Under the pieces are notes generated by a model that saw only the letters and a list, made by a program, of their open reading frames with translations, ran no database searches and had not been told where the DNA came from. This document shows, one piece after another, positions 1,758 through 24,905 of a stretch of 33,002 nucleotides of DNA. The position numbers and the translations under genes were made by a program. Source of the stretch: an uncultured Eubacteriales bacterium (GTDB taxonomy: Bacteria > Bacillota > Clostridia > Oscillospirales > Oscillospiraceae); assembly GCA_900316745.1 (NCBI GenBank), contig ONEB01000017.1:1-33002 (forward strand), written 5' to 3'. Position 1 is the stretch's first letter; each line of letters opens with the position of its first letter.

Positions 1758-1809
1758 GAACATCATAGCAGAAGAATGACTATATTTTAATACTTTGAGG
1801 AGGAAGCAC

Positions 1810-2895
1810 ATGAAAAAGACGAAAAAACTGTTCGCCATGCTGATGATTCTGTGCATGCTCGTTCCGCTGTTCGGCATCTCCGCGCTGGCAGCTGACAAGA
1901 TGACCAACGACCCCGGCTCTGCCAAGCAGTGGGGCATGAAGGCCGTCGGCATGGACGAAGCCTGGGGCATGGGCCCCACCGGCAAGGGCGTCAAGGTCGG
2001 CATCATCGACTGCGGCCTTTCCACCGCCACAGGCGACATTGCCAGAAGCCGCGTTGAGGCCGGCCCGAACTACACCGGCTCCATCGGCAACTCCGCGACC
2101 GACATCGAAGGCCACGGCACCTTTGTCGCCGGCATCATCGGCGCGGCGAAGGACAACGGCGTCGGCATCGCGGGCGTCGCTCCCGAGTGCGATTTCTACA
2201 TCGTTAAGGCGCTCAGCGATATGGCGCAGGCCGTCGATGACTGCGTGGGTGCCGGATGCCAGGTGATCAACATGAGCATGGGCACAACCTACAGCAGCGA
2301 TGCGCTCAAGTCCGCCGTTGAACGCGCTCTCGCCGCCGGCGTGATCGTGGTCGCTTCCGTCGGCAACGAGGGCAACGCGACGGTCAACTATCCCGCAGCC
2401 TATCCCGGCGTCATCGGCGTCGGCGGCGTGGATCAGAATCTGAACGTCTGCAGCTTTTCCAACAAGAACGACAGCGTGTTCGTTGTGGCTCCCGGCGAGA
2501 AGGTCGCGAGCCTCAGCCTCCTGCCGGGCGTCGTCAGCACGAAGGACGGCACCAGCTTCTCCGCGCCCTATGTGGCCGGTCTGGCAGCCCTGCTCAAGCA
2601 GATGAACCCCGCCATGGATGCCGCGGCGTTCCAGGAGATCCTGGCTGCCACCAGCAAGGATCTGGGCGAAGCGGGTTATGACATCGAGGCGGGCAACGGC
2701 CTCATCCAGATTCCCGCTGCGCTCAGATATGCCGCCGAGAAATGGGGCTATGAGCTGAGTGACACAAGCGCTCCCACCGAGCCCGATCAGCCGTCCGGCA
2801 ACTGGAACATCTTCGATTTCAGCTGGCTGCGCGAGTTCTTCCAGAACATCATTCGCAACCTCTTCAAGGGCTTGATTCCCGGCATGAGCTTCTGA
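1810..2895 (+). CDS. Secreted subtilisin-family (S8) protease, copy 1
   Basis: A 361-residue exported serine protease. A signal peptide ends near ALAAD (residue 28). The S8 triad is complete: Asp67 in VGIIDCG, His102 in EGHGTFVAG and Ser249 in DGTSFSAPYVAG, with the oxyanion Asn186 in SVGNEGN. Only about 20 residues lie between the signal peptide and the start of the catalytic fold, too few for the usual I9 inhibitory propeptide. After the catalytic domain come a Pro-rich linker (about 320-332) and the tail WLREFFQNIIRNLFKG, shared with the two downstream paralogues. ATG 1810 follows GAGGAGGAAG. The protein probably works outside the cell in peptide supply or surface processing; its substrate is unknown. 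Confidence 0.93.
   Translation: MKKTKKLFAMLMILCMLVPLFGISALAADKMTNDPGSAKQWGMKAVGMDEAWGMGPTGKGVKVGIIDCGLSTATGDIARSRVEAGPNYTGSIGNSATDIEGHGTFVAGIIGAAKDNGVGIAGVAPECDFYIVKALSDMAQAVDDCVGAGCQVINMSMGTTYSSDALKSAVERALAAGVIVVASVGNEGNATVNYPAAYPGVIGVGGVDQNLNVCSFSNKNDSVFVVAPGEKVASLSLLPGVVSTKDGTSFSAPYVAGLAALLKQMNPAMDAAAFQEILAATSKDLGEAGYDIEAGNGLIQIPAALRYAAEKWGYELSDTSAPTEPDQPSGNWNIFDFSWLREFFQNIIRNLFKGLIPGMSF
2824..2871 (+). repeat. Conserved amphipathic tail segment, copy 1
   Basis: These 48 bases encode WLREFFQNIIRNLFKG near the C-terminus of subtilase 1. The DNA matches the equivalent segments of the next two subtilase genes (4023-4070, 5258-5305) at all but two or three positions, synonymous sites included. 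Confidence 0.85.
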
Positions 2896-2933
2896 ACAGA
2901 CACTGAACGTAATCCATTGCAAGGAGGAAGAAG

Positions 2934-4094
2934 ATGAAAAGCATTTTCCGCAAGAGTCTCACCCTGCTGATGGTTCTGTGTCTGCTCATTCCGCTGTTTT
3001 GCCTTTCGGCGTTCGCGGCAGACACGCCTGCAGATTATCAGTTTACCGAAGTCAAGGAGAGCAGCATTTCCGGCAGCCTGAAGGGCATTTCCAACGATCC
3101 CTTTTCCGCTCTGCAGTGGAATCTGAAGGCGATCGGGATGGAGGAAGCCTGGCGCTCCGGCCTCACCGGCAAGGGTGTGGTCGTCGCGATTGTGGACTCG
3201 GGTCTGTCCGACATGACGCTGGACATCGACAAGAGCCGTATCCTGCCCGGTAAAAACTGCGTCGGCGGCACCGGCGTAACCGACACGATCGGCCATGGCA
3301 CCTTTATCGCGGGCATCATCGGCGCGACGAAGGACAACCTCGTCGGCGTCGCGGGCATTGCGCCCGGCGTCACGATCGCGCCGATCAAGAGCTACGCCTC
3401 TTCCGAAACGGACTTTGCTGCGCAGGCCGCCGGCATTTACGCCGCGGTGGACGAATACCACTGCGACATCCTCAACATCAGCGCCGGCGATCCGGACATC
3501 GTGCCGGAGGTACAGGCCGCAATTCAGCACGCGCTGGACGAGGGTGTGATCGTGATCGCAGCCGCCGGCAACTCCGGGGACAATCAGCTGCTGTATCCTG
3601 CCTCCTATGACGGCGTCATTTCCGTCTCGTCTGTGGACAAGGATCTGGTGCTCAGCGCCACCTCCAACCGGAATGACCACGTGTTTGTCGCCGCACCCGG
3701 TGTCGGCGTGTACAGCCTCGGCAGATTGCCCGGCACCGTCACGCTCAGCAGCGGCACCAGCTTTGCCGCGCCGGTTGTTGCCGGCGTAGCGGCGCTGCTG
3801 AAGGAGGCCTGGCCGCAGATGACCGCGAACGACTTCAGGGAAATCCTGAAGAACTCCTGCAAGGATCTCAGCACCAAGGGCTATGATATCTACTACGGCT
3901 GGGGTCTCGTTCAGGCGCCCGACGCGATCCGCGCTGCCGCCGAGTATTTCGGTGATGAAGCGCCCGACATGTCTGCGCCGGACAATCCGGGCAGCGCCTG
4001 GAGCGACTTTTTCAGCTTCAACTGGCTGCGCGAGTTCTTCCAGAACATCATCCGCAACCTCTTCAAGGGGTGGAATCTGAACTTCTCGCTTTGA
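2934..4094 (+). CDS. Secreted subtilisin-family (S8) protease, copy 2
   Basis: A 386-residue paralogue of its neighbours. The signal peptide ends near AFAAD (residue 29). The catalytic residues are Asp88 (AIVDSG), His121 (IGHGTFIAG) and Ser276 (SGTSFAAP), with Asn213 (AAGNSGD) for the oxyanion hole. A short segment of about 25 residues (31-53) precedes the NDPFSALQWNL start of the fold and is not a recognisable I9 domain. The C-terminus repeats the WLREFFQNIIRNLFKG tail followed by WNLNFSL. ATG 2934 follows AAGGAGGAAG. The gap to copy 1 is 38 bases without a terminator, so the three genes look like one operon made by tandem duplication and then divergence of the substrate-binding parts. Confidence 0.93.
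   Translation: MKSIFRKSLTLLMVLCLLIPLFCLSAFAADTPADYQFTEVKESSISGSLKGISNDPFSALQWNLKAIGMEEAWRSGLTGKGVVVAIVDSGLSDMTLDIDKSRILPGKNCVGGTGVTDTIGHGTFIAGIIGATKDNLVGVAGIAPGVTIAPIKSYASSETDFAAQAAGIYAAVDEYHCDILNISAGDPDIVPEVQAAIQHALDEGVIVIAAAGNSGDNQLLYPASYDGVISVSSVDKDLVLSATSNRNDHVFVAAPGVGVYSLGRLPGTVTLSSGTSFAAPVVAGVAALLKEAWPQMTANDFREILKNSCKDLSTKGYDIYYGWGLVQAPDAIRAAAEYFGDEAPDMSAPDNPGSAWSDFFSFNWLREFFQNIIRNLFKGWNLNFSL
4023..4070 (+). repeat. Conserved amphipathic tail segment, copy 2
   Basis: It encodes WLREFFQNIIRNLFKG in subtilase 2. It is nearly identical in DNA to the copies at 2824-2871 and 5258-5305. Confidence 0.85.
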
Positions 4095-4123
4095 GATTTC
4101 AGTAATCGACAAGGAGAAAGAAT

Positions 4124-5329
4124 ATGAAAAACACCTTCCGTAAGGGTCTCGCGCTGTTGATGGCTCTGTGCCTGCTCGTGCCGCTGTTCGGCATTTCCGT
4201 GCTGGCGGAGAACGCAGAGGACCTGCCCATTGATTATCAGTTCAAAGACGTTGAGGTTCCGGACAATGACGGCGCGCAGGCGTTGTCCGCCGGCATGACG
4301 AACGATCCCTACTCCTCCCAGCAGTGGAATCTTGAAATGATCGGTATGGGGCAGGCGTGGCAGAGCGGTCTGACCGGAAAAGGCGTGCGCGTCGCGGTCA
4401 TCGATACCGGTGTTTACACGAACACAAACGACTTCGGCGACGGCCGCCTGGAGGCCGGCAAAAATCTTGTAAGCGAAACTGCGTCCACCAATGACACGAG
4501 AGGCCACGGCACCTTTGTCGCCGGTCTGATCGGCGCAGAGAAGGACAACGGCGTCGGCATCGCGGGCGTCGCGCCCGGCGTGACGATCGTTCCGATCAAG
4601 ACCTCGAACGACGGCTCAACCGCCGACGGTGTGAGCGCGCAGGCAATTCGCGCGGCGGTGGATGAATTCCACTGCGACGTGATCAACTACAGCTCCGGCT
4701 CCAAGGCGCTCATGTCCGGTGTGAAGGATGCGGTCAATTATGCCGTCAGCAAGGGTACCATCGTCGTCTGCTCGACCGGCAACGACGGCAACACAAGCCT
4801 GTATTACCCCGGCGCGCTGGAGGCGACCATCGGCGTCGGCAGCGTGGACAAATCGATGGTGCGCAGCTCCTTCTCGCACAACAACAGGAGCATTTTTGTC
4901 GTGGCGCCCGGTGAGGACTCCACGAGCCTTGGGCTGGGAAGCGGTTCCGTCCGCACGGCCAGCGGCACCTCCTACTCCGCTCCGCTGGTGGCGGGTCTTG
5001 CCGCACTGCTGAAGGAAGCACACCCCGAGATGAACACCAACGATTTCAAGGCCATCCTGCAGTCTTCCTGCAAAGATCTCGGAGAAGCGGGTTACGACTA
5101 TGAATACGGCTGGGGTCTGATTCAGGCGCCTGAGGCGATCAAGGCCGCGGCTACATACTTCGGTACGGAGGTTCCCGATATTCCCGATACGCCCGAAATG
5201 GAGCCCGAACCCGAGCCCGGCGAAGGATGGACCATTTGGGAGCTGTTCAACTTCAACTGGCTGCGCGAGTTCTTCCAGAACATCATCCGCAGCCTCTTCA
5301 AGGGCTGGTCCCCGAATCTGACCTTTTGA
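4124..5329 (+). CDS. Secreted subtilisin-family (S8) protease, copy 3
   Basis: A 401-residue paralogue. The signal peptide ends near VLAEN (residue 29). The triad is Asp94 (AVIDTG), His128 (RGHGTFVAG) and Ser283 (SGTSYSAP), with oxyanion Asn220 (STGNDGN). A region of about 30 residues (31-59) precedes the fold and is again too short for I9. A Glu/Pro linker (EMEPEPEPGEG) joins the catalytic domain to the tail WLREFFQNIIRSLFKG, in which one Asn has become Ser. ATG 4124 follows AAGGAG. The gene sits 29 bases after copy 2 and is followed by an intrinsic terminator, so it is the last gene of the protease operon. Confidence 0.93.
   Translation: MKNTFRKGLALLMALCLLVPLFGISVLAENAEDLPIDYQFKDVEVPDNDGAQALSAGMTNDPYSSQQWNLEMIGMGQAWQSGLTGKGVRVAVIDTGVYTNTNDFGDGRLEAGKNLVSETASTNDTRGHGTFVAGLIGAEKDNGVGIAGVAPGVTIVPIKTSNDGSTADGVSAQAIRAAVDEFHCDVINYSSGSKALMSGVKDAVNYAVSKGTIVVCSTGNDGNTSLYYPGALEATIGVGSVDKSMVRSSFSHNNRSIFVVAPGEDSTSLGLGSGSVRTASGTSYSAPLVAGLAALLKEAHPEMNTNDFKAILQSSCKDLGEAGYDYEYGWGLIQAPEAIKAAATYFGTEVPDIPDTPEMEPEPEPGEGWTIWELFNFNWLREFFQNIIRSLFKGWSPNLTF
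5258..5305 (+). repeat. Conserved amphipathic tail segment, copy 3
   Basis: It encodes WLREFFQNIIRSLFKG in subtilase 3. The DNA is almost the same as at 2824-2871 and 4023-4070, while the pre-catalytic regions and linkers of the three genes differ clearly. Confidence 0.85.
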
Positions 5330-9229: not shown

Positions 9230-9294
9230 AGTTACAGTCCGATATCAAATGTCCGGCTTTGGCAAAATGCTTTGAGAAAAGAGAGGATCACTTC

Positions 9295-10233
9295 ATGAGC
9301 AGCTTCAAAGACCTTCGCATCGTTGATAACTTCTATCAGACCAGCTCCTATTTCCCCATGCCCACCGTCATGATCTCGACGCTCGCCGAGGACGGCAGCA
9401 CGTCCGTGGGCTCGTACTCGCTGTGCTTCCCGTATTACATTGCGGGCAAGGACTATTACGCCATGGTGCTGGAGGCGCGCAACTCCTCCAATACCGCGCA
9501 GCATCTGCTCGCTGGCCGCAAGCAGGTGGCGATCAATTTCATGCCCGAGGGCAGAGGCTACCACAAAAAGATCGTCGCGCAGGGCTGGCCCGGCGACACG
9601 CCCGCCGAGAAGATGAAGGACTTCGGCTTTACGCTCGAGGACGGTCTGTGCATCGAGGCCGATCCCTCCACGCCGCGCCCGAAGGTCATCCGGGAGGCAT
9701 ATCAGGTCATGGAGTGCACCTGGATGAGCGATCTTGAGAACGCGGAATCCGATATCGGCCGCAAGCTCGAGGACGGCTGCTATCCGCCTCCGTATCACGA
9801 TTTTAACGGCATCACGACGCAGTACGGCGCGCACTTCATTCTGCGCATTGACAAGATGCTCATGAAGCCGAAATTCTATGACAACATCATCAACGGCGTC
9901 AAGGGCCGCCTCTGGCCGAACGTCCTGATCTGCCACGGCTACCGCGACAGCAAGAACTTCTGGTTTGCAAAGACGCCGCGTCTCGTGCCGGAGCTGCTGC
10001 CGATCCGCAACGCCTCGCTCCAGTCCGTCCGCTACGCCGCCGACCGCACCGACCCCGACGTGCACTTTACCGACGACGCGCTGGAGATGATCGTGAACGT
10101 GCCGCGCATCTTCCTGCCGACGGTGCTCAAGGCCTGCGCCGCGTGGGCGAAGGAACACGGCGTCAAGGAGGTCACCGCCGTCGAGATGCAGATCATCAAT
10201 GACAAGCGCTCCAAGGAAAAGGGGAAGAGCTGA
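9295..10233 (+). CDS. Flavin reductase-like FMN-binding split-barrel protein
   Basis: A 312-residue soluble protein. The opening (NFYQTSSYFPMPTVMISTLAEDGSTSVGSYSLCFPYYIAG) and the following AARNSSNTAQHLLAGRKQVAINFMP-type region match the flavin reductase-like split-barrel fold, in which the early TVMIST strand and the NTA segment contact FMN. The C-terminal third (after about residue 200) is an extension that I do not recognise. Enzymes of this fold reduce flavins or pass electrons to partner oxidoreductases. ATG 9295 is favoured by GAGAGGA a few bases upstream; an upstream TTG in frame has no such site. It is transcribed alone and ends at a strong terminator. Confidence 0.72.
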   Translation: MSSFKDLRIVDNFYQTSSYFPMPTVMISTLAEDGSTSVGSYSLCFPYYIAGKDYYAMVLEARNSSNTAQHLLAGRKQVAINFMPEGRGYHKKIVAQGWPGDTPAEKMKDFGFTLEDGLCIEADPSTPRPKVIREAYQVMECTWMSDLENAESDIGRKLEDGCYPPPYHDFNGITTQYGAHFILRIDKMLMKPKFYDNIINGVKGRLWPNVLICHGYRDSKNFWFAKTPRLVPELLPIRNASLQSVRYAADRTDPDVHFTDDALEMIVNVPRIFLPTVLKACAAWAKEHGVKEVTAVEMQIINDKRSKEKGKS

Positions 10234-13741: not shown

Positions 13742-14767
13742 ATGAAAGAAATCAGAACCGAAGAGGCTGTGGGGCATGTGCTGTGTCATGATATGACGCA
13801 GATCATCCGCGGCGTGACAAAGGACGCGCGCTTCCGCAAGGGGCATATCGTGACGGAGGAGGACATTCCCGTGCTCCTGAGCATGGGAAAGGAGACGCTG
13901 TTCGTCTGGGAAAAGACGCCCGGTATGCTCCACGAGGACGAGGCGGCAGATCGCCTGCGCGCAATGTGTCAGGGCGAGAACATGCACGCCACGGCGCCCA
14001 AGGAGGGCAAGATCGAGCTCATCGCGGACATCGACGGGCTGTTTACCGTGGACGTGGAGCGCCTGGAGCGCGTAAACGGCGTGGAGCAGCTCATGATCGC
14101 GACGCGCCACACGATGACGCCGGTGAAGGCGGGCGACAAGCTCGCCGGCACGCGTGTCATTCCGCTCGTCATTGAAGAGAGCCGCCTTGCTGAGGCGGAA
14201 GCGCTCTGCGGCGATCAGCCGCTTTTGCAGGTGCTGCCGTTCCGCCTGAAGACTGCGGGTCTCATCACCACCGGGAACGAGGTCTCGAAAGGCCGCATTC
14301 CGGACACGTTCACGCCCGTGATCGTGCAGAAGCTCAAGCGCTACGGCATCGAGGTGACGCGCCACTGCACGCCGGGCGACGACATGGACGCCATCACGCG
14401 CGCGGCGCTGGACTTCCGCGCGGCGGGCGTGGATATGATCCTCTGCACGGGCGGCATGAGCGTCGATCCCGACGACCGCACGCCGGGTGCGATCAAGGCC
14501 ACCGGCTGTGAGATCGTCACCTACGGCGCGCCGGTGCTCCCCGGGGCGATGTTCCTGCTCGGTTATTTCCCGGACGGCACGCCCATCATGGGGCTGCCGG
14601 GCTGCGTGATGTATGCCGCGACCACAATCTTTGATCTCATGCTGCCGCGCATTGCGGCGGGTGTGCCCGTCACGAAGCGGGATCTCGTGCGGCTGGGTCA
14701 CGGGGGACTGTGCCTCGGGTGTGACGTGTGTACCTGGCCGAACTGCGGCTTTGGAAAGGGTGAATGA
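13742..14767 (+). CDS. MoeA-related molybdopterin-binding protein with C-terminal Cys cluster
   Basis: A 341-residue protein. An N-terminal region (GHVLCHDMTQIIRG, FRKGHIV, LLSMGKETLFV) is followed by a MoCF-biosynthesis/MogA-like domain at about 170-310 (AGLITTGNEVSKGRI, ILCTGGMSVDPDDRTP, VLPGAMFLLGY, GLPGCVMY). It ends in GLCLGCDVCTWPNC, with Cys324, 327, 330 and 335, a set able to hold an Fe-S cluster or metal. Related proteins often accompany molybdenum hydroxylase genes in Clostridia. It probably binds molybdopterin and helps deliver or modify the cofactor. It is the first gene after the riboswitch. ATG 13742 has only a weak AGGTG site. Its end overlaps the moeA start by four bases. Confidence 0.85.
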   Translation: MKEIRTEEAVGHVLCHDMTQIIRGVTKDARFRKGHIVTEEDIPVLLSMGKETLFVWEKTPGMLHEDEAADRLRAMCQGENMHATAPKEGKIELIADIDGLFTVDVERLERVNGVEQLMIATRHTMTPVKAGDKLAGTRVIPLVIEESRLAEAEALCGDQPLLQVLPFRLKTAGLITTGNEVSKGRIPDTFTPVIVQKLKRYGIEVTRHCTPGDDMDAITRAALDFRAAGVDMILCTGGMSVDPDDRTPGAIKATGCEIVTYGAPVLPGAMFLLGYFPDGTPIMGLPGCVMYAATTIFDLMLPRIAAGVPVTKRDLVRLGHGGLCLGCDVCTWPNCGFGKGE

Positions 14768-15990
14768 CGATGGAAACGGGCATTTCCGTAGAACGCGCCA
14801 TCGAATTGATCGAACAAAATACGCTGCCCGTGGGGACGGAGCGGATTGAAGCCACGCGCGCGCACGGACGCATCCTCGCAGAGGACGTCTGCGCGCCGAT
14901 CAGCCAGCCGCCGTGGCCGCGCTCGCCTCTGGACGGCTACGCCCTGCGCGCCGCCGACAGCGCCGGCGCGTCGAAAGATACGCCCCGCATGCTCCGCGTG
15001 GTCGATACGATCTACGCCGGCGGGTGGTCGGAGGTGACCGTTCAGCCGGGCGAGTGTGTGCGTCTCATGACCGGCGCGCCGATTCCCGCCGGATGCGACT
15101 GCGTGATCCGGCAGGAGGACACGGACCTGGGCGCGGAGCGCGTCAGGATTTACAAAGCGCTCAGCGCGTGGGACAACTACTGCAAGATCGGCGACGACTT
15201 TCTCAAGGGCGACAAGCTGCTGCCTGCCGGAACGAAGCTCAACGGCAACGCGCTCGGTGTGCTCGCGTCCGCGGGACTGCACCGGGACGACGAGCGGCTC
15301 ACCGTTTACAAACGCGTGCGCTGCGCCGTGCTCTGCACCGGGGACGAGCTTGTGCCGAACGCGGTGCGCCCGCTCCCGCCGGGGAAGATCTATTCCTCGA
15401 ACGAGGCGGTGCTCTCCTCACGGCTATCGGAGCTCGGCATGGAGCTCACTGTGGTGCGCGGGGAATTTACCGACGATCCCGCGGCGCTCGCCGCCGCCAT
15501 CCGGGAGGCCGCCGGGACCGCCGACGTGATCTTCACCACGGGCGGCGTGAGCGTCGGCGCGAAGGACATCCTGCACGAGACGCTGCCGCGCTTAAACGCC
15601 GACCGTGTGTTCTGGCAGGTGCGCCTGAAGCCGGGCTCGCCAATGATGTTTTCCATTTACGACGGCAAACCGCTCCTGTCGCTCTCCGGCAATCCCTTTG
15701 CCGCGAGCGCGACGTTTGAGCTCTTCGGACGTGTGCTGCTCTCCGTGCGCTCCGGCGACGCCTCCTTGCGCGCGCAGGTCGTCACGGCTGAGCTTGACAC
15801 GACGTTTGAGAAATTCGGACGCGGACGGCGCTTCGTGCGCAGCGTGTTCCGCGACGGACACGTCACGATCCCGCAGGGCCATTCCTCCGGTCAGCTCGCC
15901 TCCGCCGTGGGGACGAACTGCCTCGCGGAGATCCCGCCCGCGGATGCCCCGCTCAGGGCGGGCAGCACGGTACGGGTGTGGCTGTTATGA
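14764..15990 (+). CDS. moeA: Molybdopterin molybdenumtransferase MoeA
   Basis: A 408-residue enzyme that inserts molybdate into adenylated molybdopterin. The MoeA N-terminal domain shows PPWPRSPLDGYALRAAD and RLMTGAPIPAGCDCVIRQED (about residues 40-120). The MogA-like domain shows CTGDEL, IYSSNEAVLSSRL, FTTGGVSVGAKD and PGSPMMF (about 185-310), and a C-terminal beta domain follows. It starts at ATG 14764 inside the ATGA overlap with the previous gene (ATG 14770 is an alternative) and overlaps mobB by four bases, so translation is coupled. Confidence 0.95.
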   Translation: MTMETGISVERAIELIEQNTLPVGTERIEATRAHGRILAEDVCAPISQPPWPRSPLDGYALRAADSAGASKDTPRMLRVVDTIYAGGWSEVTVQPGECVRLMTGAPIPAGCDCVIRQEDTDLGAERVRIYKALSAWDNYCKIGDDFLKGDKLLPAGTKLNGNALGVLASAGLHRDDERLTVYKRVRCAVLCTGDELVPNAVRPLPPGKIYSSNEAVLSSRLSELGMELTVVRGEFTDDPAALAAAIREAAGTADVIFTTGGVSVGAKDILHETLPRLNADRVFWQVRLKPGSPMMFSIYDGKPLLSLSGNPFAASATFELFGRVLLSVRSGDASLRAQVVTAELDTTFEKFGRGRRFVRSVFRDGHVTIPQGHSSGQLASAVGTNCLAEIPPADAPLRAGSTVRVWLL

Positions 15991-16475
15991 GACAGAAGAT
16001 CATTGCGGTCTCCGGCGTGAAAAACTCCGGCAAGACCACGCTTTTAACCAAGCTGATTCCCGCGCTGATAGATCGGGGAATCACCTGCGCCGTCATCAAG
16101 CACGACGGGCACGGCTTTGCCGCCGACCGCGAGGGCACGGATACCTGCCGCATGCTTGCTTCGGGCGCCATGGGCGCCGCCATCTTCGACGGCGAAAAAT
16201 TTCAGGCGGTGAAGTACGCCGCCGTGACGGAGGAAAACCTCTTCGCGCTCTATCCCGAGGCGGATCTGATCCTGCTGGAGGGGTTTAAGTGGACGGACTA
16301 TCCGAAGATCGAGATCGTCCGCAAGGGTGTCTCGGAGCAGGCTGTCTGCGATCGGGATACGCTCCTTGCCCTCGTCACGGACACGGCGCTGCGCATTCCC
16401 GGTGTCCCGACCTGCACGCCGGATGACATTGCCGGCATCGCCGCGCTGATCGAAAGGGAGGTGCGCCATGATTGA
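15987..16475 (+). CDS. mobB: Molybdopterin-guanine dinucleotide biosynthesis protein MobB
   Basis: A 162-residue GTP-binding P-loop protein. Walker A is GVKNSGKTTL near the N-terminus, followed by VIKHDGHGF, GTDTCRMLASGA and LILLEGFKWTDYPKIEIVR, all MobB hallmarks. MobB assists MobA in forming the guanine dinucleotide cofactor used by DMSO-reductase-family enzymes, which fits the oxidoreductase at 6935. No MobA is seen in the window. ATG 15987 overlaps the moeA stop by four bases. Confidence 0.93.
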   Translation: MRQKIIAVSGVKNSGKTTLLTKLIPALIDRGITCAVIKHDGHGFAADREGTDTCRMLASGAMGAAIFDGEKFQAVKYAAVTEENLFALYPEADLILLEGFKWTDYPKIEIVRKGVSEQAVCDRDTLLALVTDTALRIPGVPTCTPDDIAGIAALIEREVRHD

Positions 16476-17436
16476 CGCTTTGGGGCGGAACATTGACTAT
16501 ATCCGCCTTTCCATCACGGACCGGTGCAGCCTGCGGTGCACCTACTGCATGCCTGCCGAGGGCGTTCAGTGGCTGCCGCACGAGCGCATTTTGCGCTATG
16601 AGGAGCTGCTGCGCCTGTGCCGGATCTTCGTCTCCCTCGGCATCACGAAGTTCAAGATCACGGGCGGAGAGCCGCTTGTGCGAAAAGGCGTCGCGGACTT
16701 CACCCGCGCGCTGAAACAGATCGACGGCGTGCAGAGCGTCACGCTCACGACGAACGGCGTGGATCTCAAAGCGCAGCTGCCCGCCCTGATCGACGCGGGG
16801 ATCGACGGGATCAATCTGAGCCTGGATACGCTCGACCGCACGCGCTTTTTTGAGCGCACCCGGCGTGACGCGCTGCCGCAGGTGCTTCAGGGGCTGGACG
16901 CCGCGCTCGGCGTTCCGGGCCTGAATCTGAAGCTCAACTGCGTCGCCATGGCGGGCGCGGAGTCTGACTGGCTCTCGCTCGCGGAGATCGCAAAGGATCA
17001 AAATGTTACGGTGCGTTTCATTGAGCTCATGCCCATCGGCATGGGGCAGGGGAGCGTGCCCTGTACGGAAGCCGAGGTCGCGGCGGCGCTGGAGAAAGCC
17101 TACGGGAAGCTCACGCCCTATGACACGCCGCTCGGAAACGGTCCCGCGCACTACTGCTCGCTGCCGGGCTTCGTCGGAAAGATCGGCTTTATCAGCGCGG
17201 TGAGCCACGGCTTTTGCGACCGGTGCAACCGCGTGCGCCTCACGGCGTCGGGCTATCTCAAAACCTGTCTGCAGTATGAGACGGGCGCCGACCTCTCGGC
17301 GCTGCTCTCTGAGCCGGACGAGACGATCCGCGCCGCTGTTCAGGAGGCAATCGGCCGCAAGCCCGCCTCGCACCAATTCCAGTCCGCCGCCGTACAAAAC
17401 GGCGAAACACACATCATGAGTCAGATCGGAGGCTGA
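16468..17436 (+). CDS. moaA: GTP 3',8-cyclase MoaA
   Basis: A 322-residue radical SAM enzyme for the first step of molybdopterin synthesis. The SAM cluster motif is Cys20, Cys24, Cys27 (CSLRCTYC). ITGGEPLVRKG and TTNGVDL follow. The second cluster is formed by CDRCNRVRLTASGYLKTC. The protein ends in MSQIGG, matching the double-Gly tail that MoaA inserts in its active site. It overlaps mobB by eight bases. Its product is processed by MoaC, encoded further down the operon. Confidence 0.96.
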   Translation: MIDALGRNIDYIRLSITDRCSLRCTYCMPAEGVQWLPHERILRYEELLRLCRIFVSLGITKFKITGGEPLVRKGVADFTRALKQIDGVQSVTLTTNGVDLKAQLPALIDAGIDGINLSLDTLDRTRFFERTRRDALPQVLQGLDAALGVPGLNLKLNCVAMAGAESDWLSLAEIAKDQNVTVRFIELMPIGMGQGSVPCTEAEVAAALEKAYGKLTPYDTPLGNGPAHYCSLPGFVGKIGFISAVSHGFCDRCNRVRLTASGYLKTCLQYETGADLSALLSEPDETIRAAVQEAIGRKPASHQFQSAAVQNGETHIMSQIGG

Positions 17437-17441
17437 TTATT

Positions 17442-17879
17442 ATGGGCAAGGTTCTTGCTGTGTGCATCAGCGAAAAAAAAGGCACGGAGAAACGAAACGT
17501 CGGCTCCGCGCGGTTTATTGAGGATTGGGGCATCGAAAACGATTCCCACGCCGGAAAATGGCACCGGCAGGTGTCGCTGCTGAGCCACGAGAAGATCGAG
17601 GCGTTCCGGGCGCGGGGCGCGGAGGTGATCGACGGCGCGTTCGGCGAAAACCTCGTCGTGGACGGCTTTGACTTCCGCACGCTTCCCGTCGGCACGAAAT
17701 TCAAGTGCAATGACGTGGTTCTGGAGCTCACGCAGATCGGCAAGGAGTGCCACTCCGGCTGCGCGATCTATCAGAAAATGGGCGAGTGCATCATGCCCCG
17801 CGAGGGCGTGTTCACCCGCGTGCTGCACGGAGGCACGATCTCCGTCGGCGACACAATGGAAATTTTGAAGGAGGACTGA
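17442..17879 (+). CDS. MOSC domain protein
   Basis: A 145-residue stand-alone MOSC domain (molybdenum cofactor sulfurase C-terminal fold): GSARFIEDWGIENDSHAG, RQVSLLSHEKI, FGENLVVDGFDF, LPVGTKF, LELTQIGKECHSGCAI and HGGTISVGD. The conserved Cys in GKECHSGC is the likely sulfur- or Mo-binding residue. Single MOSC proteins are thought to carry or transfer sulfur to the cofactor. ATG 17442 lies five bases after moaA and ten bases after CGGAGG. Confidence 0.88.
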   Translation: MGKVLAVCISEKKGTEKRNVGSARFIEDWGIENDSHAGKWHRQVSLLSHEKIEAFRARGAEVIDGAFGENLVVDGFDFRTLPVGTKFKCNDVVLELTQIGKECHSGCAIYQKMGECIMPREGVFTRVLHGGTISVGDTMEILKED

Positions 17880-17881
17880 AC

Positions 17882-18376
17882 ATGGCTTTTCGGGCATTCA
17901 TTCTCACAGCCAGCGACGCAGGCTCACGCGGCGAGCGCGAGGACAAGTCCGGTCCCGCCGCGCAGGAAATGCTGGAGGACGCGGGATACACCATCGCGGG
18001 TTATGCCATGCTGCCGGACGACCGCGCCATGCTCGCGGACAAGATGCGCGAGGTCTGCGACAGGGATCTCGCGGATCTGCTCGTGACGACGGGCGGCACG
18101 GGCTTTTCGCCGCGCGACTGCACGCCCGAGGCGACCGCCGACGTCACCGAGCGCGCCGTACCCGGCATCCCGGAGGCCATGCGGTATTACTCGCTGCAGA
18201 TCACGCCGCGCGCCATGCTCTCCCGCGCCGGAGCCGGCATCCGCAAGGGCACGCTCATCGTGAATCTCCCCGGCAGCCCCAAGGCCGTCAGGGAGTGCCT
18301 GGAATTCATCCTGCCGAGTCTGGAGCACGGACTCGAGATTCTCAGAGGCACGGCGCATAACTGTGCAAGGACATAA
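17882..18376 (+). CDS. Molybdopterin adenylyltransferase (MogA/MoaB family)
   Basis: A 164-residue MoCF-fold protein. TASDAGSRGEREDKSGP, LLVTTGGTGFSPRDCTPEAT, ERAVPGIPEAMR, RAGAGIRKGTLIVNLPGSPKAV are the family motifs (the TTGGTG loop and NLPGSP). It adenylates molybdopterin with ATP to make the MoeA substrate. ATG 17882 is two bases after the MOSC stop, with GGAGGA just upstream. By sequence alone, MogA and MoaB cannot be separated here. Confidence 0.93.
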   Translation: MAFRAFILTASDAGSRGEREDKSGPAAQEMLEDAGYTIAGYAMLPDDRAMLADKMREVCDRDLADLLVTTGGTGFSPRDCTPEATADVTERAVPGIPEAMRYYSLQITPRAMLSRAGAGIRKGTLIVNLPGSPKAVRECLEFILPSLEHGLEILRGTAHNCART

Positions 18377-18391
18377 GAAAGGAGCCGTCAC

Positions 18392-19225
18392 GTGAAAAAA
18401 ACCATCGCATTCCTGCTTGCCGTCATGATGCTGTTTGCCCTCGCGGCCTGCGGCAATGACAAGGCACAAGCCGAGGTGGAAGCAGCTGAAGCGGAAGAGA
18501 TCACACTCTATGTCTTCGCCGCCGCCTCCATGACGGAGACGCTCGATCAGATTATCGAGCTCTACAAGGCGGAAGCGCCGAACGTCACGATCGTCCCGAC
18601 CTACGATTCCTCCGGTACGCTGAAGACCCAGATCGAAGAGGGCGCGGAGTGCGACCTCTTTATCTCCGCTGCGCAGAAGCAGATGAACCAGCTGGACGCA
18701 GCTGTGGACGCCGAGGGCGGCAACACGGACGGCCTCGATTTCGTCCTCTCCGACTCGCGCGTGAACCTGCTGGAAAACAAGGTCGTTCTCGCTGTTCCCG
18801 ACGAGAACAAGGCCAATATCCAGTCCTTTGAAGACCTCGGCACGGACAAGCTCACGCTCCTTTGCATCGGCAACGAGGACGTGCCTGTCGGCGCGTACTC
18901 GGAGGAGATTCTCACCACGCTCGGCATCCTCGATACGCTGAAGGCCTCCAATAAGCTCACCTACGGCTCCAACGTAAAAGAGGTCACCACGCAGGTCAAG
19001 GAGGGCACCGTGGACGCCGGCATTATCTATGCGACCGACGCGTTCTCGGCCGATCTCACCGTCGTGGCGCAGGCGGACAGCGCCCTCTGCCGTCAGGTCA
19101 TCTATCCCGCCGCCGTGATGAAGAACACGCAGCATGAAGAGGCTGCACGCGACTTCCTCGCATTCCTGCAGTCTGACGCCGCCATGCAGGTCTTCCAGTC
19201 CGTCGGCTTCGCGCCCGCACCGTAA
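18392..19225 (+). CDS. modA: Molybdate ABC transporter substrate-binding lipoprotein ModA
   Basis: A 277-residue lipoprotein. The lipobox is LAAC-G at about residue 20, then an acidic linker and a ModA fold: [81 protein letters not shown]. Ser in AASM and SSGTL are typical molybdate ligands. It starts at GTG 18392 with AAAGGAG eight bases upstream. It sits inside the Moco operon, separated from modB by moaC. Confidence 0.94.
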
Positions 19226-19229
19226 CGCC

Positions 19230-19712
19230 ATGAAAGAATTTACACATTTCAACGAATCCGGACGCGCGCACATGGTGGACGTGTCCGAGAAAAACGAGAC
19301 CGCCCGCACCGCCGTCGCCGCCGGCCGCGTGCGCATGAACGCGGAGACGTTTGCGCTGGTGAAATCCGGCGGCATGAAAAAGGGCGACGTGCTCACCACG
19401 GCACAGATCGCGGGCGTCATGGCGGCAAAGAAAACGAGCGACGTCATCCCCATGTGCCACCCGCTCATGCTGAGCGCCGTCGATCTGGATTTCAATCTCA
19501 ACGAGGCCGACTGCGCCGTGGACATCACCGCAACGGTGAAGTGCCGGGGCGTCACCGGCGTGGAGATGGAGGCGCTCACGGCGGTCTCCGTCGCCGCGCT
19601 CACGGTCTATGACATGTGCAAGGCCGTGCAGAAAGACATGGAGATCACGGACATCCGCCTGCTGAAAAAGACGGGCGGCAAGAGCGGCACATTTCAGAGA
19701 CAGGACGCATGA
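19230..19712 (+). CDS. moaC: Cyclic pyranopterin monophosphate synthase MoaC
   Basis: A 160-residue enzyme that converts the MoaA product to cyclic pyranopterin monophosphate. [19 protein letters not shown], the active-site region [16 protein letters not shown], and [24 protein letters not shown] are diagnostic. ATG 19230 comes four bases after the modA stop without a clear ribosome binding site, suggesting coupled translation, and its stop overlaps the modB start (ATGA). Confidence 0.96.
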
Positions 19713-20380
19713 TGGATCTCTATCCGCTGTATAACGCGCTGCGCATCGCGGCGATCAGCTGCGTGATCGTGTTCTTTCTCGGCATTTTCGCCGCGCACTT
19801 TGCGGCAAAGCTGCCGCGCGTGATCAAGGGGCTGCTCGATGTGGTGCTCACGCTGCCGCTCGTGCTGCCGCCGACGGTCGTGGGGTACTTCCTCTTGGTG
19901 CTTCTGGGGCCGAAGCGCGTGTTCGGCGCGTGGATGCTGAGCACGTTTCATGTGCGCATGACGATGGTGTGGTATTCTGCGATCTTCGCCTCCGTCGTCG
20001 TGGCGTTCCCGCTCATGTACCGCACGGCGCGCGGCGCGTTTGAGTCGTTTGACCCCGCGCTGCGCGACTCGGCGCAGACGCTGGGGCTCTCGAACCGCTA
20101 TATCTTCTGGCGCATCCAGATGCCGTGCTGCCGGCAGGGCATTCTCGCGGGCACGGTGCTCGCCTTTGCCCGCGCGCTCGGCGAGTACGGCGCGACGAGC
20201 ATGGTCGCGGGCTATACCCCGGGGCGCACCGCCACGATCTCCACCACGGTCTATCAGCTCTGGCGCACGAACGACGAGGCGCTGGCGTTTCGCTGGGTGA
20301 TGATCAATGTTGCGATCTCGTTCGTGGTGCTCATGGCGGTGAACCTGCTGGAGAAGCGTCAGCGAGAGGGGGCGCGCTGA
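19709..20380 (+). CDS. modB: Molybdate ABC transporter permease ModB
   Basis: A 223-residue inner-membrane permease with about five membrane segments. [17 protein letters not shown] and the cytoplasmic coupling loop [30 protein letters not shown] are characteristic of ModB. It starts in the ATGA overlap with moaC and is followed after one base by modC. Confidence 0.95.
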
Positions 20381-20381
20381 A

Positions 20382-21419
20382 ATGTCGATCACAGTGGACA
20401 TCGAAAAGCGCTTCGGAGACTTTCACCTGCGCGTGCAGTTTGAGGCGCTCGACGCCGTGCACGGGCTGCTGGGCGCTTCGGGCTGCGGCAAGAGCATGAC
20501 GCTCCGGTGCATCGCCGGCGTCGTGCGTCCCGACCGGGGACGCATCGTGGTAAATGACCGCGTGCTGTTTGACAGCGAGCGGGGCATCGACGTAAAGCCG
20601 CAGGAGCGGCGCGTGGGGCTGCTGTTTCAAAACTACGCGCTCTTTCCGAACATGACGGTGGACGGAAATCTCCGCGCCGCCGTGCGCTGCGCATCTCGCA
20701 GGGAAGCAGACGCCGCCGTCGCCGAAATGCTCCGCCGCTTTCGTCTGGAGGGACTGGAGCGCCACCGCCCGGCGCAGCTCTCCGGCGGACAGCAGCAGCG
20801 TGTCGCTCTGGCGCGCATCCTGCTCACGAAGCCGGAGATCCTCCTGCTCGATGAGCCGCTCTCCGCGCTCGACAGCTATCTGCGCTGGCAGACGGAGCTG
20901 GAGCTCCAGGAGGTGCTGGAGGACTTTCCCGGCACAACGCTGCTCGTGACACACAGCCGCGAGGAGGTGCACAGACTCTGCCGCACCGTCACTGTTCTGG
21001 ATCACGGCGCGGGCGAGGGGAGCATGCCGGTGCAGACGCTCTTTCACGCGCCGGAGACGCTCTCGGCGTGTCTGCTCTCCGGCTGCAAGAATTACAGCCG
21101 CGCCGAGCGGCTGGATGAAAAGCATATCCGCGCGCTCGACTGGGGCGTGACGCTTGCCTGCGGCGCGCGGCCTGATACGCGGTATGTCGCCATCCGTGCA
21201 CACCATATCGCGCTCTCGGACATGCCGGGGGAGAACACGATCCCCTGCGGGGTGCTGCGCGTCGTGGACGATGTGTTTTCCACCATCGTGATGGCCTCGA
21301 CCCCGGGCGGCGACACTGCGCAGAGCCGTCTGCGTGTGGAGCTGCCGAAGGAGGCATGGAGCGATCGCGAGACGCTGTATCTGCATCTCGCGCCCGAACA
21401 CCTGATGACACTAAAATGA
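20382..21419 (+). CDS. modC: Molybdate ABC transporter ATP-binding protein ModC
   Basis: A 345-residue ATPase. Walker A is GASGCGKSMTL (31-41; Ser-Met replaces the usual Thr/Ser-Thr pair), then FQNYALFPNMTV at the Q-loop, signature LSGGQQQR, Walker B ILLLDEPLSALD and switch VTHSREEV. A C-terminal region from about 270 (RYVAIRAHHIAL, NTIPCGVLRVVDD) is the TOBE-type molybdate-sensing domain. Last gene of the operon, ending at a terminator. Confidence 0.94.
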   Translation: MSITVDIEKRFGDFHLRVQFEALDAVHGLLGASGCGKSMTLRCIAGVVRPDRGRIVVNDRVLFDSERGIDVKPQERRVGLLFQNYALFPNMTVDGNLRAAVRCASRREADAAVAEMLRRFRLEGLERHRPAQLSGGQQQRVALARILLTKPEILLLDEPLSALDSYLRWQTELELQEVLEDFPGTTLLVTHSREEVHRLCRTVTVLDHGAGEGSMPVQTLFHAPETLSACLLSGCKNYSRAERLDEKHIRALDWGVTLACGARPDTRYVAIRAHHIALSDMPGENTIPCGVLRVVDDVFSTIVMASTPGGDTAQSRLRVELPKEAWSDRETLYLHLAPEHLMTLK

Positions 21420-21420
21420 T

Positions 21421-21457
21421 AAAACGAGGACAGACCGTCTTGGCCTGTCCTCGTTTT
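21421..21457. terminator. Bidirectional terminator between modC and the deaminase gene
   Basis: AAAACGAGGACAG (21421-21433) pairs perfectly with CTGTCCTCGTTTT (21445-21457). T-runs on both strands fit its position between two convergent genes. Confidence 0.9.
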
Positions 21458-21459
21458 GT

Positions 21460-23898
21460 TTATGAAAGGATTTCATGCACGGGATCATCGAGCTCCTGCA
21501 GGAGCCTTACATATCCTTGCAGGGATTTTGCCTTGGCGCGCAGGACGCGGGAGCTGGGGTCTATGAAGATGGCGCATTTTTCCGGCGCGTTCTTGGCCTC
21601 CTGCACGAGATTGGCACACGGGCTTTTGCCCTCCAGCGCGAGCAGCACGGACGGCCGGCGCTTGAAGATCTCGTAGGCAAAGCTCTTGTATACGCCGTTG
21701 CCGCTCGGCTCGATGGAGAGCCGGATGCCGACGCCGTGGCGCCGCAGCCGGTCGCGCTCCGCAGGCGTGATCGCCGTCGGCACAAAGGCAAAGATCCGAA
21801 ACCGGCCGCGGCTGCGCTCGACGAGATAGCGCTCATAGCCCGAGAGGCGATGCCCGATCACGAAGAAGACCTTCTCCGGGTCAGCCGTGCGCAGGAGCGC
21901 GTCGAGGAGGGCTTTGTCATCCTCCCGCATGGGCGCCGCGTGCCGGTCGCCGGAGAAGCTGCCGCCCGCAATGATGATCGGAAGCCCCTCCTGCGGCAGC
22001 GGCTCAATCTGAGCGCTGAGCGCCTCGGCGGCGTCGATCCTGCCGTCGGTGCGCCAGAACTGCGCCGCCGGACGCTGGGTGCCGGCTATCCGCGCGCGGT
22101 AGAGCGCTTCGGGGTCGCCGTCTCCGCACAGGGCGTTAAACGCTTTTTGCTTATGCGCAAACGCCTGCATCCCCGCCGCCGTGACGGCCTCTTCCGCCCT
22201 GCGCATAAGACGCAGCTCCTCGTGCTTTAAGCCCAGCAGCTTTTCCAGCGCCAGCTCCTCGTCGATGGAGTTCGTGCCGTAGAGCGCGCCGCCGTCCGTG
22301 CCCTGCACGCAGCGCACGCCCGCGCTTAAATATGCCTTGAGCGGGTGGCGGTCGAGGTCGCTGAGGTTATTGAGCCGCACGTTGGACGTGAGCTGAAATT
22401 CCAGCACGACGTTGTTCTCCCGAAGCTCGCGCAGGAGCTTGCGTCCCTTTGCGGTGCGCAGGTTCGAGGTATAGAGCCCGTGACCGATGCGCATGGGCGG
22501 CATGGCCTGTCCGGGAGAGAGCGCGTCGCGCACGCATTGGATGCTGCCCGCCACGTTGTCGCGCAGACTGTCGTTTTCGCCCGCGTGGACGCGGAGGACA
22601 AAGCCGGGGTTCTCGTTCGCGATCGCAGCGAGCTCGCGCAGCACGCCGCGCAGCTCTGAAATGTCGTTGATCTCCTCGCCCACGATGTCGCTGCCCGCAA
22701 TGTAAGGGTCCATGGCGACGGCGCGGAGCACCTGCAGGTTTTCTGCCAGCGCGTCGTTCGGCGTCACATTGTCGCGCACGATCGTGAGCGGTGTGCGCCG
22801 GAGCGCCGCGAGAAACCGCAGCGTCACGCCTGTCTCGCGCGTAACGGAGGGCATCACAGCGTGAATCTCGCGCAGGATGCGCGGCGCGTCAGCCTGCTTG
22901 CAGAGCGCCGTGTCGGAGATCTCCGCGTAGGAAATCCCGTAGCGCCGATACCCGCGCGCGATCCAGAGGAGCTTGTTTTGATAGAGCGTGTTGTCCCGGT
23001 AGTCGGGGCTTTCCATGTCAGAGAGCATCATGCGGAGCGTGCGCGCAATGTCCGCGTCCGGGAGCGTGAAATCATCCCGCAGTGAAATCGGGCGGTCGCT
23101 TGCGATTCCTTTCGTGAACACATAGCGATAGAGATAGACCTTTTCCAGATCCGCGAACACCGCCTGCCCGTCCTTCGGCACGGCGAGCGAGTTGCGGATG
23201 CGCGCAATATTATAGGCGGCGTCCGCAGGATTGTTCAAAATGAGATCCGCGAAGTTCAAAAAGCAGTTGTCGTCAATCTTGCGGTCTAAGTACTTGCCCG
23301 TGAGGGGTGAGCCGGCAAACCGGGACGCGGTCTCGGCGCGGTCGCGTTTGAGACGCTCGCGCTGCTCCGGCGTCAAGCGCAGACCCAGCTTCCGGATGTA
23401 ATAGAGCGGGTAGCGGATCTGATGGCGGATGCCGAGGGCGATCAGCACGTCCGGCTCCAGATTCGCGCTCATGTGCGTGTGGAGGTCGGCGTGGAACTTG
23501 CAGTCGTCGAAGATATAGGTCTTGACGATGGTTTTTGTCTCGCTCAGACGGTAGCTGCGCGTCTGGCTCATGAGCACCTTGGAGATCGAGGGGATGGAGG
23601 CTTTCAGCTCCACGGCGCCGTCGGGGAAGATGTTCGCGATTTTCGTGTTCCCCATGCGGAAAATGTAAAGCCTGCGGTTTTCGCCGTCCACATAGCAGGG
23701 GATCGTGCCGCGGATGACCTTCAGGCCGTTTTCGTCCAGGCTCAGCGGCAGGTCACACAGCGTCGCGAGATTCGTGATCAGGTTTCCCGTGCTGTGGTTC
23801 GGCGTGCGCAGCAGATAGCGCAGCGTCTCGCCGTCACGAAACAGCTCCACGACGATGTCCTTTTCCTTATCCAGAAAAAACTGACCGAATTGCTCCAT
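21460..23898 (-). CDS. Adenosine-deaminase-like protein with C-terminal SLOG-like domain
   Basis: An 812-residue cytoplasmic protein in three parts. Residues 1-135 form an unassigned beta-rich domain. Residues about 135-600 are an expanded adenosine deaminase/metallohydrolase barrel with His140/His142 (LHTH), His438 and Glu441 (HAGE), His473 (RIGHG) and Asp535 (GTDGG in place of the usual TDDP). Every metal and catalytic position of ADA is kept, with a roughly 200-residue insertion between the first and second motifs. Residues about 638-785 (IIIAGGSFSG, KVFFVIGHRLSGYERYLVE, RPSVLLALEGKSPCANLVQEA) look like a Rossmann-type SLOG nucleotide sensor; this part is inference. The size recalls RdrB of RADAR defence, but no RdrA ATPase is nearby. 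The start is ATG at 23898, preceded by GGGAGG; a codon seven residues upstream lacks a site. Confidence 0.82.
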   Translation of the reverse strand: MEQFGQFFLDKEKDIVVELFRDGETLRYLLRTPNHSTGNLITNLATLCDLPLSLDENGLKVIRGTIPCYVDGENRRLYIFRMGNTKIANIFPDGAVELKASIPSISKVLMSQTRSYRLSETKTIVKTYIFDDCKFHADLHTHMSANLEPDVLIALGIRHQIRYPLYYIRKLGLRLTPEQRERLKRDRAETASRFAGSPLTGKYLDRKIDDNCFLNFADLILNNPADAAYNIARIRNSLAVPKDGQAVFADLEKVYLYRYVFTKGIASDRPISLRDDFTLPDADIARTLRMMLSDMESPDYRDNTLYQNKLLWIARGYRRYGISYAEISDTALCKQADAPRILREIHAVMPSVTRETGVTLRFLAALRRTPLTIVRDNVTPNDALAENLQVLRAVAMDPYIAGSDIVGEEINDISELRGVLRELAAIANENPGFVLRVHAGENDSLRDNVAGSIQCVRDALSPGQAMPPMRIGHGLYTSNLRTAKGRKLLRELRENNVVLEFQLTSNVRLNNLSDLDRHPLKAYLSAGVRCVQGTDGGALYGTNSIDEELALEKLLGLKHEELRLMRRAEEAVTAAGMQAFAHKQKAFNALCGDGDPEALYRARIAGTQRPAAQFWRTDGRIDAAEALSAQIEPLPQEGLPIIIAGGSFSGDRHAAPMREDDKALLDALLRTADPEKVFFVIGHRLSGYERYLVERSRGRFRIFAFVPTAITPAERDRLRRHGVGIRLSIEPSGNGVYKSFAYEIFKRRPSVLLALEGKSPCANLVQEAKNAPEKCAIFIDPSSRVLRAKAKSLQGYVRLLQELDDPVHEILS

Positions 23899-23930
23899 GC
23901 CGCACCTCCCATAAGTCATTGATTTTAAAC

Positions 23931-23998: not shown

Positions 23999-24038
23999 AG
24001 ACGCGGTAATCTGAAAATTCTCTCGGGAGGTTTTGACC

Positions 24039-24905
24039 ATGGCAAAAAAGAAAACGATCCTTGATCTCGTGCAGATGAAAGAAAACGGCGAACAGGCCGT
24101 CTGGATGGTGCTGTATGACGCGTGCTTTGCGTCCTACGCCGAGGAGGCCGGGATGGACATGATCCTCGTCGGCGACTCCATGGGCATGATCGTCTATGGC
24201 TGGGAGGGCACCGTCCCCGTCACAATGGACATGTCCATCGCCCACTGCCAGGGCGTGCGCCGCGGCGCGCCGAACACCTATCTCATCGGCGACATGCCGT
24301 TCGGCGCGTATCACGCAAGCTGCGAGGACGCGGTGCGCAACGCCGTGCGCTTCATGAAGGAGGGCGGCGTGGACGCCATCAAGCTTGAGGGCGGCGTCGC
24401 CGTCGCGGATAAGATCGAGGCCATCAGCAAGGCGGGCATTGTCGTGTTCGGTCACATCGGTCTGACCCCGCAGAGCAGCGCTGCCATGGGCGGCTTCAAG
24501 GTGCAGGGCAAGAACACCGCCACTGCCAAGGCCATCATCGAGGACGCCATCGCCGTTTACAAGGCGGGCGCGCGCGTGCTCCTGCTCGAAGGCGTGCCGG
24601 AGGAGACCGCCTCTTTTATCCACAAAATCCTGCCCATTCCGGTCTACGGCATCGGCGCGGGCGCGGACTGCGACGGTCAGGTGCTGCTCGCGGCGGACGC
24701 GCTCGGCATGTACAAGAATTTCACGCCGAAGTTTGCCAAGAAGTACTGCGACATCGCGTCTCTCGCCACGCAGGGCATGCGCGACTATATCGCGGAGGTC
24801 AAGGGCGGCGCGTTCCCCGCACCGGAGCACAAGTATAAATTCACCGGCGACAAGGAGGAGTTTGCGGCCTTCCTCGCGGAGTATGAAAAGGAACTCGATT
24901 TGTAA
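24039..24905 (+). CDS. panB: 3-methyl-2-oxobutanoate hydroxymethyltransferase (ketopantoate synthase)
   Basis: A 288-residue enzyme that adds a hydroxymethyl group from methylene-tetrahydrofolate to 2-oxoisovalerate, the first committed step to pantothenate and CoA. ILVGDSMGMIVYGW, VPVTMDM, LIGDMPFGAYH, AIKLEGG, VFGHIGLTPQ and the catalytic LLLEGVPEE are all PanB motifs. ATG 24039 lies eight bases after GGGAGG. panC, panD and panE are not in the window. The gene is followed by an aminotransferase 18 bases on. Confidence 0.93.
   Translation: MAKKKTILDLVQMKENGEQAVWMVLYDACFASYAEEAGMDMILVGDSMGMIVYGWEGTVPVTMDMSIAHCQGVRRGAPNTYLIGDMPFGAYHASCEDAVRNAVRFMKEGGVDAIKLEGGVAVADKIEAISKAGIVVFGHIGLTPQSSAAMGGFKVQGKNTATAKAIIEDAIAVYKAGARVLLLEGVPEETASFIHKILPIPVYGIGAGADCDGQVLLAADALGMYKNFTPKFAKKYCDIASLATQGMRDYIAEVKGGAFPAPEHKYKFTGDKEEFAAFLAEYEKELDL

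Follow-up and report, generated by a model that had tools for sequence, protein, structure and literature searches.

What does a barrel of the adenosine deaminase (ADA) type do when it is joined to a domain with a SLOG-type fold, which elsewhere binds or processes nucleotides? The question is raised by a 33,002-nucleotide stretch of contig ONEB01000017.1 (assembly GCA_900316745.1, an uncultured Eubacteriales bacterium), hereafter the window, in which one gene on the minus strand encodes both parts in a single protein. We propose, with a probability of about one half, that the product is a stand-alone one-gene enzyme, a nucleotide deaminase gated by its SLOG domain. The barrel would hydrolytically deaminate AMP, ADP/ATP, dATP or a modified adenine nucleotide in preference to free adenosine, and the C-terminal domain would bind a nucleotide-type ligand and thereby switch the barrel on or off, by analogy with CARF in Cad1 and SLOG in ThsA. 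The gene has the following parts.

21460-23898, minus strand: whole gene with N-terminal domain, ADA barrel and SLOG domain; 812 amino acids plus stop, from the open reading frame (ORF) and its start
23494-23898, minus strand: N-terminal domain, residues 1-135, strand-rich by secondary structure
22129-23517, minus strand: ADA-type metal-dependent deaminase barrel, residues 128-590, with H140, H142, H438, E441, H473 and D535
22939-23388, minus strand: residues 171-320, a predominantly helical stretch that separates barrel strands 1 and 2, from secondary structure and aligned lengths
23467-23469, minus strand: codon of S144, which aligns with Asp19 of mouse ADA
22291-22293, minus strand: codon of G536, which aligns with Asp296 of mouse ADA
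21994-22128, minus strand: linker, residues 591-635, of low conservation (mean pairwise identity 0.27)
21499-21993, minus strand: SLOG-type Rossmann domain, residues 636-800, with a GGSF loop and a GNS...N..QEAxN loop-helix

The barrel, with its HxH...HxxE...H...D set, falls in the PF00962 superfamily, and the six metal and catalytic residues named above are invariant in all 78 rows of our family alignment. The rows are the window protein, L002, L004 and 75 of 80 loci kept from the survey described below; the partial rows L023, L083 and L084 and the near-copies L060 (of L052) and L071 (of L070) are omitted, and 77 of the rows are distinct, as L004 equals L008 in sequence. The substrate-binding positions are another matter. 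In the HMMER alignment the family's 'TDLHTHMNAN' stands opposite 'TDIHRHLDGN' of Salmonella ADA, and its 'TDGGA' opposite 'TDDPA'. The mouse Asp19 position is occupied by Asn in 67 rows and by Ser in 11, and the Asp296 position by Gly in every row, so that all 78 depart from the acidic residue and the Asp that mark a nucleoside ADA at these two places. When 17 ordinary ADA-like proteins of the phylum were aligned with 9 family rows as a control, the first position held Asp or Glu in all 17, and the second held Asp (10/17) or Asn (7/17), the seven with Asn being single-domain ADA-like proteins among L005, L006 and L089-L107. Arg367 is invariant in the family and Arg436 occurs in at least 90% of its rows, at positions where the ordinary ADAs carry Met or Leu (15/17) and Thr (17/17).

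The complete catalytic set, together with ADA matches in both Pfam and NCBIfam, could indicate an ordinary adenosine deaminase with accessory domains, but with both substrate-Asp positions changed and a score of 55 against the 217-bit cut-off of the NCBIfam equivalog TIGR01430 we consider this highly improbable. Since both positions are also changed in Cad1, a phosphorylated substrate appears likelier than adenosine. According to passages of the study of TaqCad1 (PMC12669630), that enzyme has Gly and Asn at the D19 and D296 positions, converts ATP to ITP with little deamination of adenosine, and loses ATP deamination in the N549D variant.

The C-terminal part matches the Rossmann fold of SMF/DprA and LOG proteins, which at the level of fold places it in the SLOG superfamily. 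Its structural kin are TRPM, the molybdenum cofactor carrier protein, DprA and LOG, with the cofactor carriers among the best matches; ShosA, an anti-phage protein, ranks fourth among the Foldseek matches (E 3.6e-3). The phosphoribohydrolase motif of LOG enzymes, PGGxGTxxE, is found in none of the 78 rows, and a loop-helix G[NK][SAT]xxxNxxQ[ED]AxN is found in all of them, a combination that favors ligand binding over hydrolysis of the LOG type. The preliminary description of this DNA, made from its letters, had thus read the anatomy correctly, both in the retained metal and catalytic positions and in the joining of ADA to a SLOG-type domain, and the C-terminal fold, which it had proposed to check, proved to be of that type. 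Its account of the active site was incomplete, in that the changes at both substrate-Asp positions were overlooked.

Several points weigh against a SLOG-gated nucleotide deaminase. The SLOG assignment comes from modeled fold alone, as no Pfam SLOG family matched the C-terminal part, nor did hhalign match it to LOG proteins (picked by their PGGxGT core), and the domain could be purely structural. Judging from the aligned controls, Asn at the D296 position is no peculiarity of Cad1, and the family's Gly536 differs from Cad1's Asn at the same place. The two Asp positions are also not the sole determinant of specificity: in the published passages on TaqCad1, reinstating both Asp raised adenosine activity but did not restore it (PMC12669630). 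Both the SLOG ligand and the deaminase substrate are putative.

How the family is distributed bears on its role. A species-genome collection was searched with a pattern built by aligning the window protein with three relatives, which yielded 256 matches, of which 142 encode a relative; the counts of kept loci below rest on 80 of these 142. Among viral contigs, 119 pattern matches contained no confirmed relative, and no relative was confirmed in the plasmid and phage collections. By database record the 80 loci belong to Bacillota (70) and Actinomycetota (8), with 2 unplaced, and by class to Clostridia (62), Coriobacteriia (8) and Erysipelotrichia (8), again with 2 unplaced. Many record titles point to rumen or intestinal sampling, and many others carry RUG codes, presumably also of rumen genomes; named carriers include Acetitomaculum ruminis DSM 5522 (L079) and Lachnoclostridium sp. 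MSJ-17 (L065). Within this range the distribution is patchy. A full copy occurs in 4 of 60 related genomes, counting the window's own, while G022 and G055 have short barrel matches that resemble ordinary ADAs. Of 398 genomes of the phylum, two are carriers, again including the window's own, and seven more match in the barrel only; the N-terminal and SLOG domains were found there only in the two carriers of the whole protein.

The copies that do occur are well preserved. None of the 80 ORFs contains an internal stop (77 are complete and 3 are truncated at contig ends), identity to the window protein is 53-73% across the three classes, and mean pairwise identity in the 78-row alignment is 0.68 for residues 1-130, 0.63 for the barrel and 0.51 for the SLOG part. 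The ratio dN/dS is 0.00-0.23 in each of three protein parts (the 25 closest of 44 close pairs), and strong purifying selection acts on all parts of the protein. In a quick tree the rows cluster by class beyond shuffled expectation (4 changes versus 15.5 on average), and the Coriobacteriia rows form one supported clade among the Clostridia rows, beside two of them. This placement suggests, though it does not prove, transfer across phyla.

Such conservation fits a role in nucleotide homeostasis, where a regulated AMP (or ATP) deaminase would tune adenylate and inosinate pools and the SLOG domain would read a normal metabolite or alarmone. The gene, present once in its own genome, is also the sole PF00962 match there, and among 16 genomes scanned the 11 without the gene have no PF00962 match at all. 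An inosine-uridine nucleoside hydrolase family (PF01156) lies beside two copies, being found in 2 of 136 flanking genes (among the 25 of 185 Pfam families listed); the two loci, L052 and L060, resemble near-copies, and a nucleoside hydrolase cluster occurs in 3 loci. Against this role stand the very patchy occurrence and the lack of any purine gene that recurs across most loci, the purine-gene context being rare. We regard homeostasis as a credible possibility, short of an even chance and somewhat likelier than defense, for which the gene's context gives no clear sign.

Clustering of the neighbors at 81 loci revealed no general partner gene. The commonest cluster other than the family itself consists of generic ABC transporters, at scattered positions in 9-10 loci. 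Neighbors at fixed positions occur in at most 3-5 loci, chiefly close relatives (for example a secreted-type protein of about 890 amino acids at +1 on the opposite strand, in 3-4 loci), and we take them to reflect shared ancestry of the loci. A same-strand neighbor lies within 30 bases upstream in 15 of 48 cases and downstream in 12 of 42, so co-transcription of some copies, with genes that vary between loci, is possible. The Pfam families of the 136 flanking genes are diverse, none occurring in more than 4 (among the same 25 listed).

With PADLOC (E ≤ 1e-5) we compared 136 of 145 genes at ±1, excluding 9 shorter than 100 or longer than 900 amino acids, with 136 of 171 eligible control genes at ±6 to 9. 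Model families matched numbered 76 near the gene versus 44 in the controls, a count of families rather than proteins in which one protein can match many models, and a small excess of defense genes near the gene may exist. Among the first 25 families listed for each set, most matches both near and far are generic models or singletons; the near ones include AbiEii, PDC-M37B and DrmD/DpdE/ZorD-type helicase models (1 gene each), the control ones AbiEi (1), reverse-transcriptase models (2) and MzaA (1). A defense island was rejected, as near and control matches are alike in kind. Also rejected was a link to Cad1 through PADLOC, whose CARF_ADA model covers the ADA part only and also gives matches in E. 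coli and in five more of the 14 control genomes.

Among 50 carrier genomes (which include G013 and the genome of L008, apparently one genome), Csm1 exceeds its cut-off in 1, which is not the window's own; any Csm1 match occurs in 19, the others being short and weak. TIR_2 exceeds its cut-off in 29 of the 50 and matches at any level in 32, and it was not found in the window's own genome, which is 92.5% complete. Neither a Csm1-made nor a TIR-made messenger can therefore be the general signal. No type III CRISPR-Cas context emerged from Csm1 or from repeat arrays, with Cmr2-type Cas10 left out of the search; regular short repeats at about 4500-5500 of L074, a possible CRISPR array some 5 kb upstream of the homologue, are the single case in 81 stretches. 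The neighbors in the window are an ABC-transporter ATPase gene and panB, neither of them RdrA, for which no model search was made. Nor does the locus resemble Thoeris, as the enzyme is an ADA and TIR_2 is distributed as described.

An anti-phage effector has to be weighed against these results. In this scenario the SLOG domain would bind an infection signal and the barrel would convert ATP/dATP to ITP/dITP and halt the phage, in the manner of Cad1 or RADAR within one protein. The substitutions shared with Cad1, the use of SLOG in ThsA as described in passages of PMC11204291, the Foldseek match to ShosA, the patchy spread with the Coriobacteriia clade inside the Clostridia rows, and the 76 versus 44 model families all point in this direction. 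The missing general partner, the mostly shared generic or singleton PADLOC matches, the counts of Csm1 and TIR_2, and the absence of confirmed relatives from phages, plasmids and viral contigs point away from it. The low dN/dS and strong conservation of the family also contrast with RdrB, whose conserved C-terminal part is 24-28% identical among systems in the passages at hand (PMC9994260). We consider the anti-phage role doubtful. We hold as unlikely the more specific proposal of a one-gene signaling effector, a SLOG-gated counterpart of Cad1 without CRISPR, RdrA or a linked signal maker, in which SLOG would sense a stress or infection signal derived from NAD or nucleotides and ATP/dATP would become ITP/dITP.

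The context therefore does not support a defense link, and the connection to conflict systems suggested in the preliminary description found no support, given PADLOC matches like those of controls, Csm1 in 1 of 50 genomes and no phage, plasmid or viral-contig relatives. Of its RADAR-like deaminase, the nucleotide substrate survives as probable from active-site comparison with RADAR and Cad1. Its expectation of no RdrA partner is supported, no general neighbor being found in 81 loci, and the contexts are not generally those of purine salvage, which it had singled out for scrutiny.

The gene occupies a single long frame, 23919 to 21460 on the minus strand, with an ATG start codon at 23898 in our reading. 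Two further features were read directly from the letters.

23905-23909, minus strand: ribosome-binding site GGAGG, 6 nt 5' of the ATG
21422-21457, no strand assigned: inverted repeat AAAACGAGGACAG...CTGTCCTCGTTTT, noted by eye between the convergent ABC-transporter gene and the deaminase gene

The inverted repeat is likely a two-way terminator. With the convergent ABC-transporter ATPase gene (20382-21419, plus strand) on one side and the divergent panB (24033-24905, plus strand) on the other, the deaminase gene forms a single-gene unit at this locus. In two genomes of the same genus it lies on a different contig from panB and the aminotransferase gene, which remain together, and the mod genes are absent there as well; this is reshuffling within the genus and no proof of mobility. 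Sequence searches of the N-terminal domain returned no Pfam or PDB match, and the listed structure matches of the whole model span only residues ~101 to 583. Residues 171-320 are taken to hold the sequence that is extra to ordinary ADAs, with approximate borders.

Next to the gene lies a molybdenum-cofactor and molybdate-uptake cluster (13742-21419, plus strand) with moeA and a second MoCF-domain gene, mobB, moaA and a MOSC gene; the remainder is presumably mogA, modA, moaC, modB and a modC-like gene. At 1e-10 the products of moeA, mobB, moaA, MOSC, mogA, modA, moaC and modB had no match in the 80 kept loci, many of which are short contigs, and modC gave generic ABC matches in 11. The link was rejected as chance on these grounds. 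The cluster also touches the idea of another substrate, such as a modified purine nucleotide, a dinucleotide or a pterin-like base, which would enter an open Gly536 pocket while SLOG holds its far end. Invariant Gly where the 17 ordinary proteins have Asp or Asn, and cofactor carriers among the SLOG kin, are consistent with this; the cofactor genes, however, adjoin the window copy only, and we rate such a substrate as rather improbable.

Elsewhere in the window, on the plus strand, a cluster of tRNA genes for Glu, Lys, Asn, Met and Trp, five in all, occupies 146-791. Three adjacent ORFs at 1795-5329, possibly tandem paralogues, have similar secretion-type N-termini (MKKTKKLF, MKSIFRKS and MKNTFRKG), and a 324-amino-acid ORF at 9259-10233 scores well for codons and matches no Pfam family at 1e-5.

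No ADA-SLOG fusion appeared among the papers listed in our literature search, although the main SLOG survey (Burroughs 2015) may mention one. A review naming both adenosine deaminase and SLOG treats the two apart in the portions seen (PMC12948488), and a survey of NAD/ADPr systems that mentions SLOG domains 19 times does not use 'deaminase' in its main text (PMC9503650). We judge the combination to be a new sensor-deaminase architecture. Gating of ATP deamination by a bound nucleotide has a precedent in Cad1, and SLOG gating in ThsA. If SLOG-gated nucleotide deamination is correct, the family represents a third design, spread over Clostridia, Erysipelotrichia and Coriobacteriia without linked partners; sensor-deaminases would have arisen more than once and could work outside CRISPR, and the family offers one single protein on which this can be tested.

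Cad1/CAAD, a CARF-ADA effector of type III CRISPR, is changed at the same two substrate positions, to G and N where the family has N/S and G. It differs in that CARF is N-terminal whereas SLOG is C-terminal; the family also has an extra N-terminal domain, and most of its carriers lack a CRISPR context. RdrB of RADAR, compared by description, likewise combines an ADA barrel with insertions, an N-terminal extension and a His/Glu metal site in a nucleotide deaminase, according to parts of PMC9994260, but no RdrA lies beside the window copy, and SLOG is present. ThsA of Thoeris, a SIR2-SLOG protein, similarly fuses SLOG to a nucleotide-consuming enzyme (PMC11204291, in part); its enzyme is SIR2 and it requires a TIR partner, while TIR is under the cut-off in 21 of the 50 family carrier genomes. 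With TRPM, the molybdenum cofactor carrier protein, DprA and LOG the SLOG part shares the fold without Pfam kinship and, for LOG, without hhalign kinship. With the adenosine and AMP deaminases of PF00962, the family shares the barrel and the catalytic residues, and differs in the substrate-Asp positions and the added domains.
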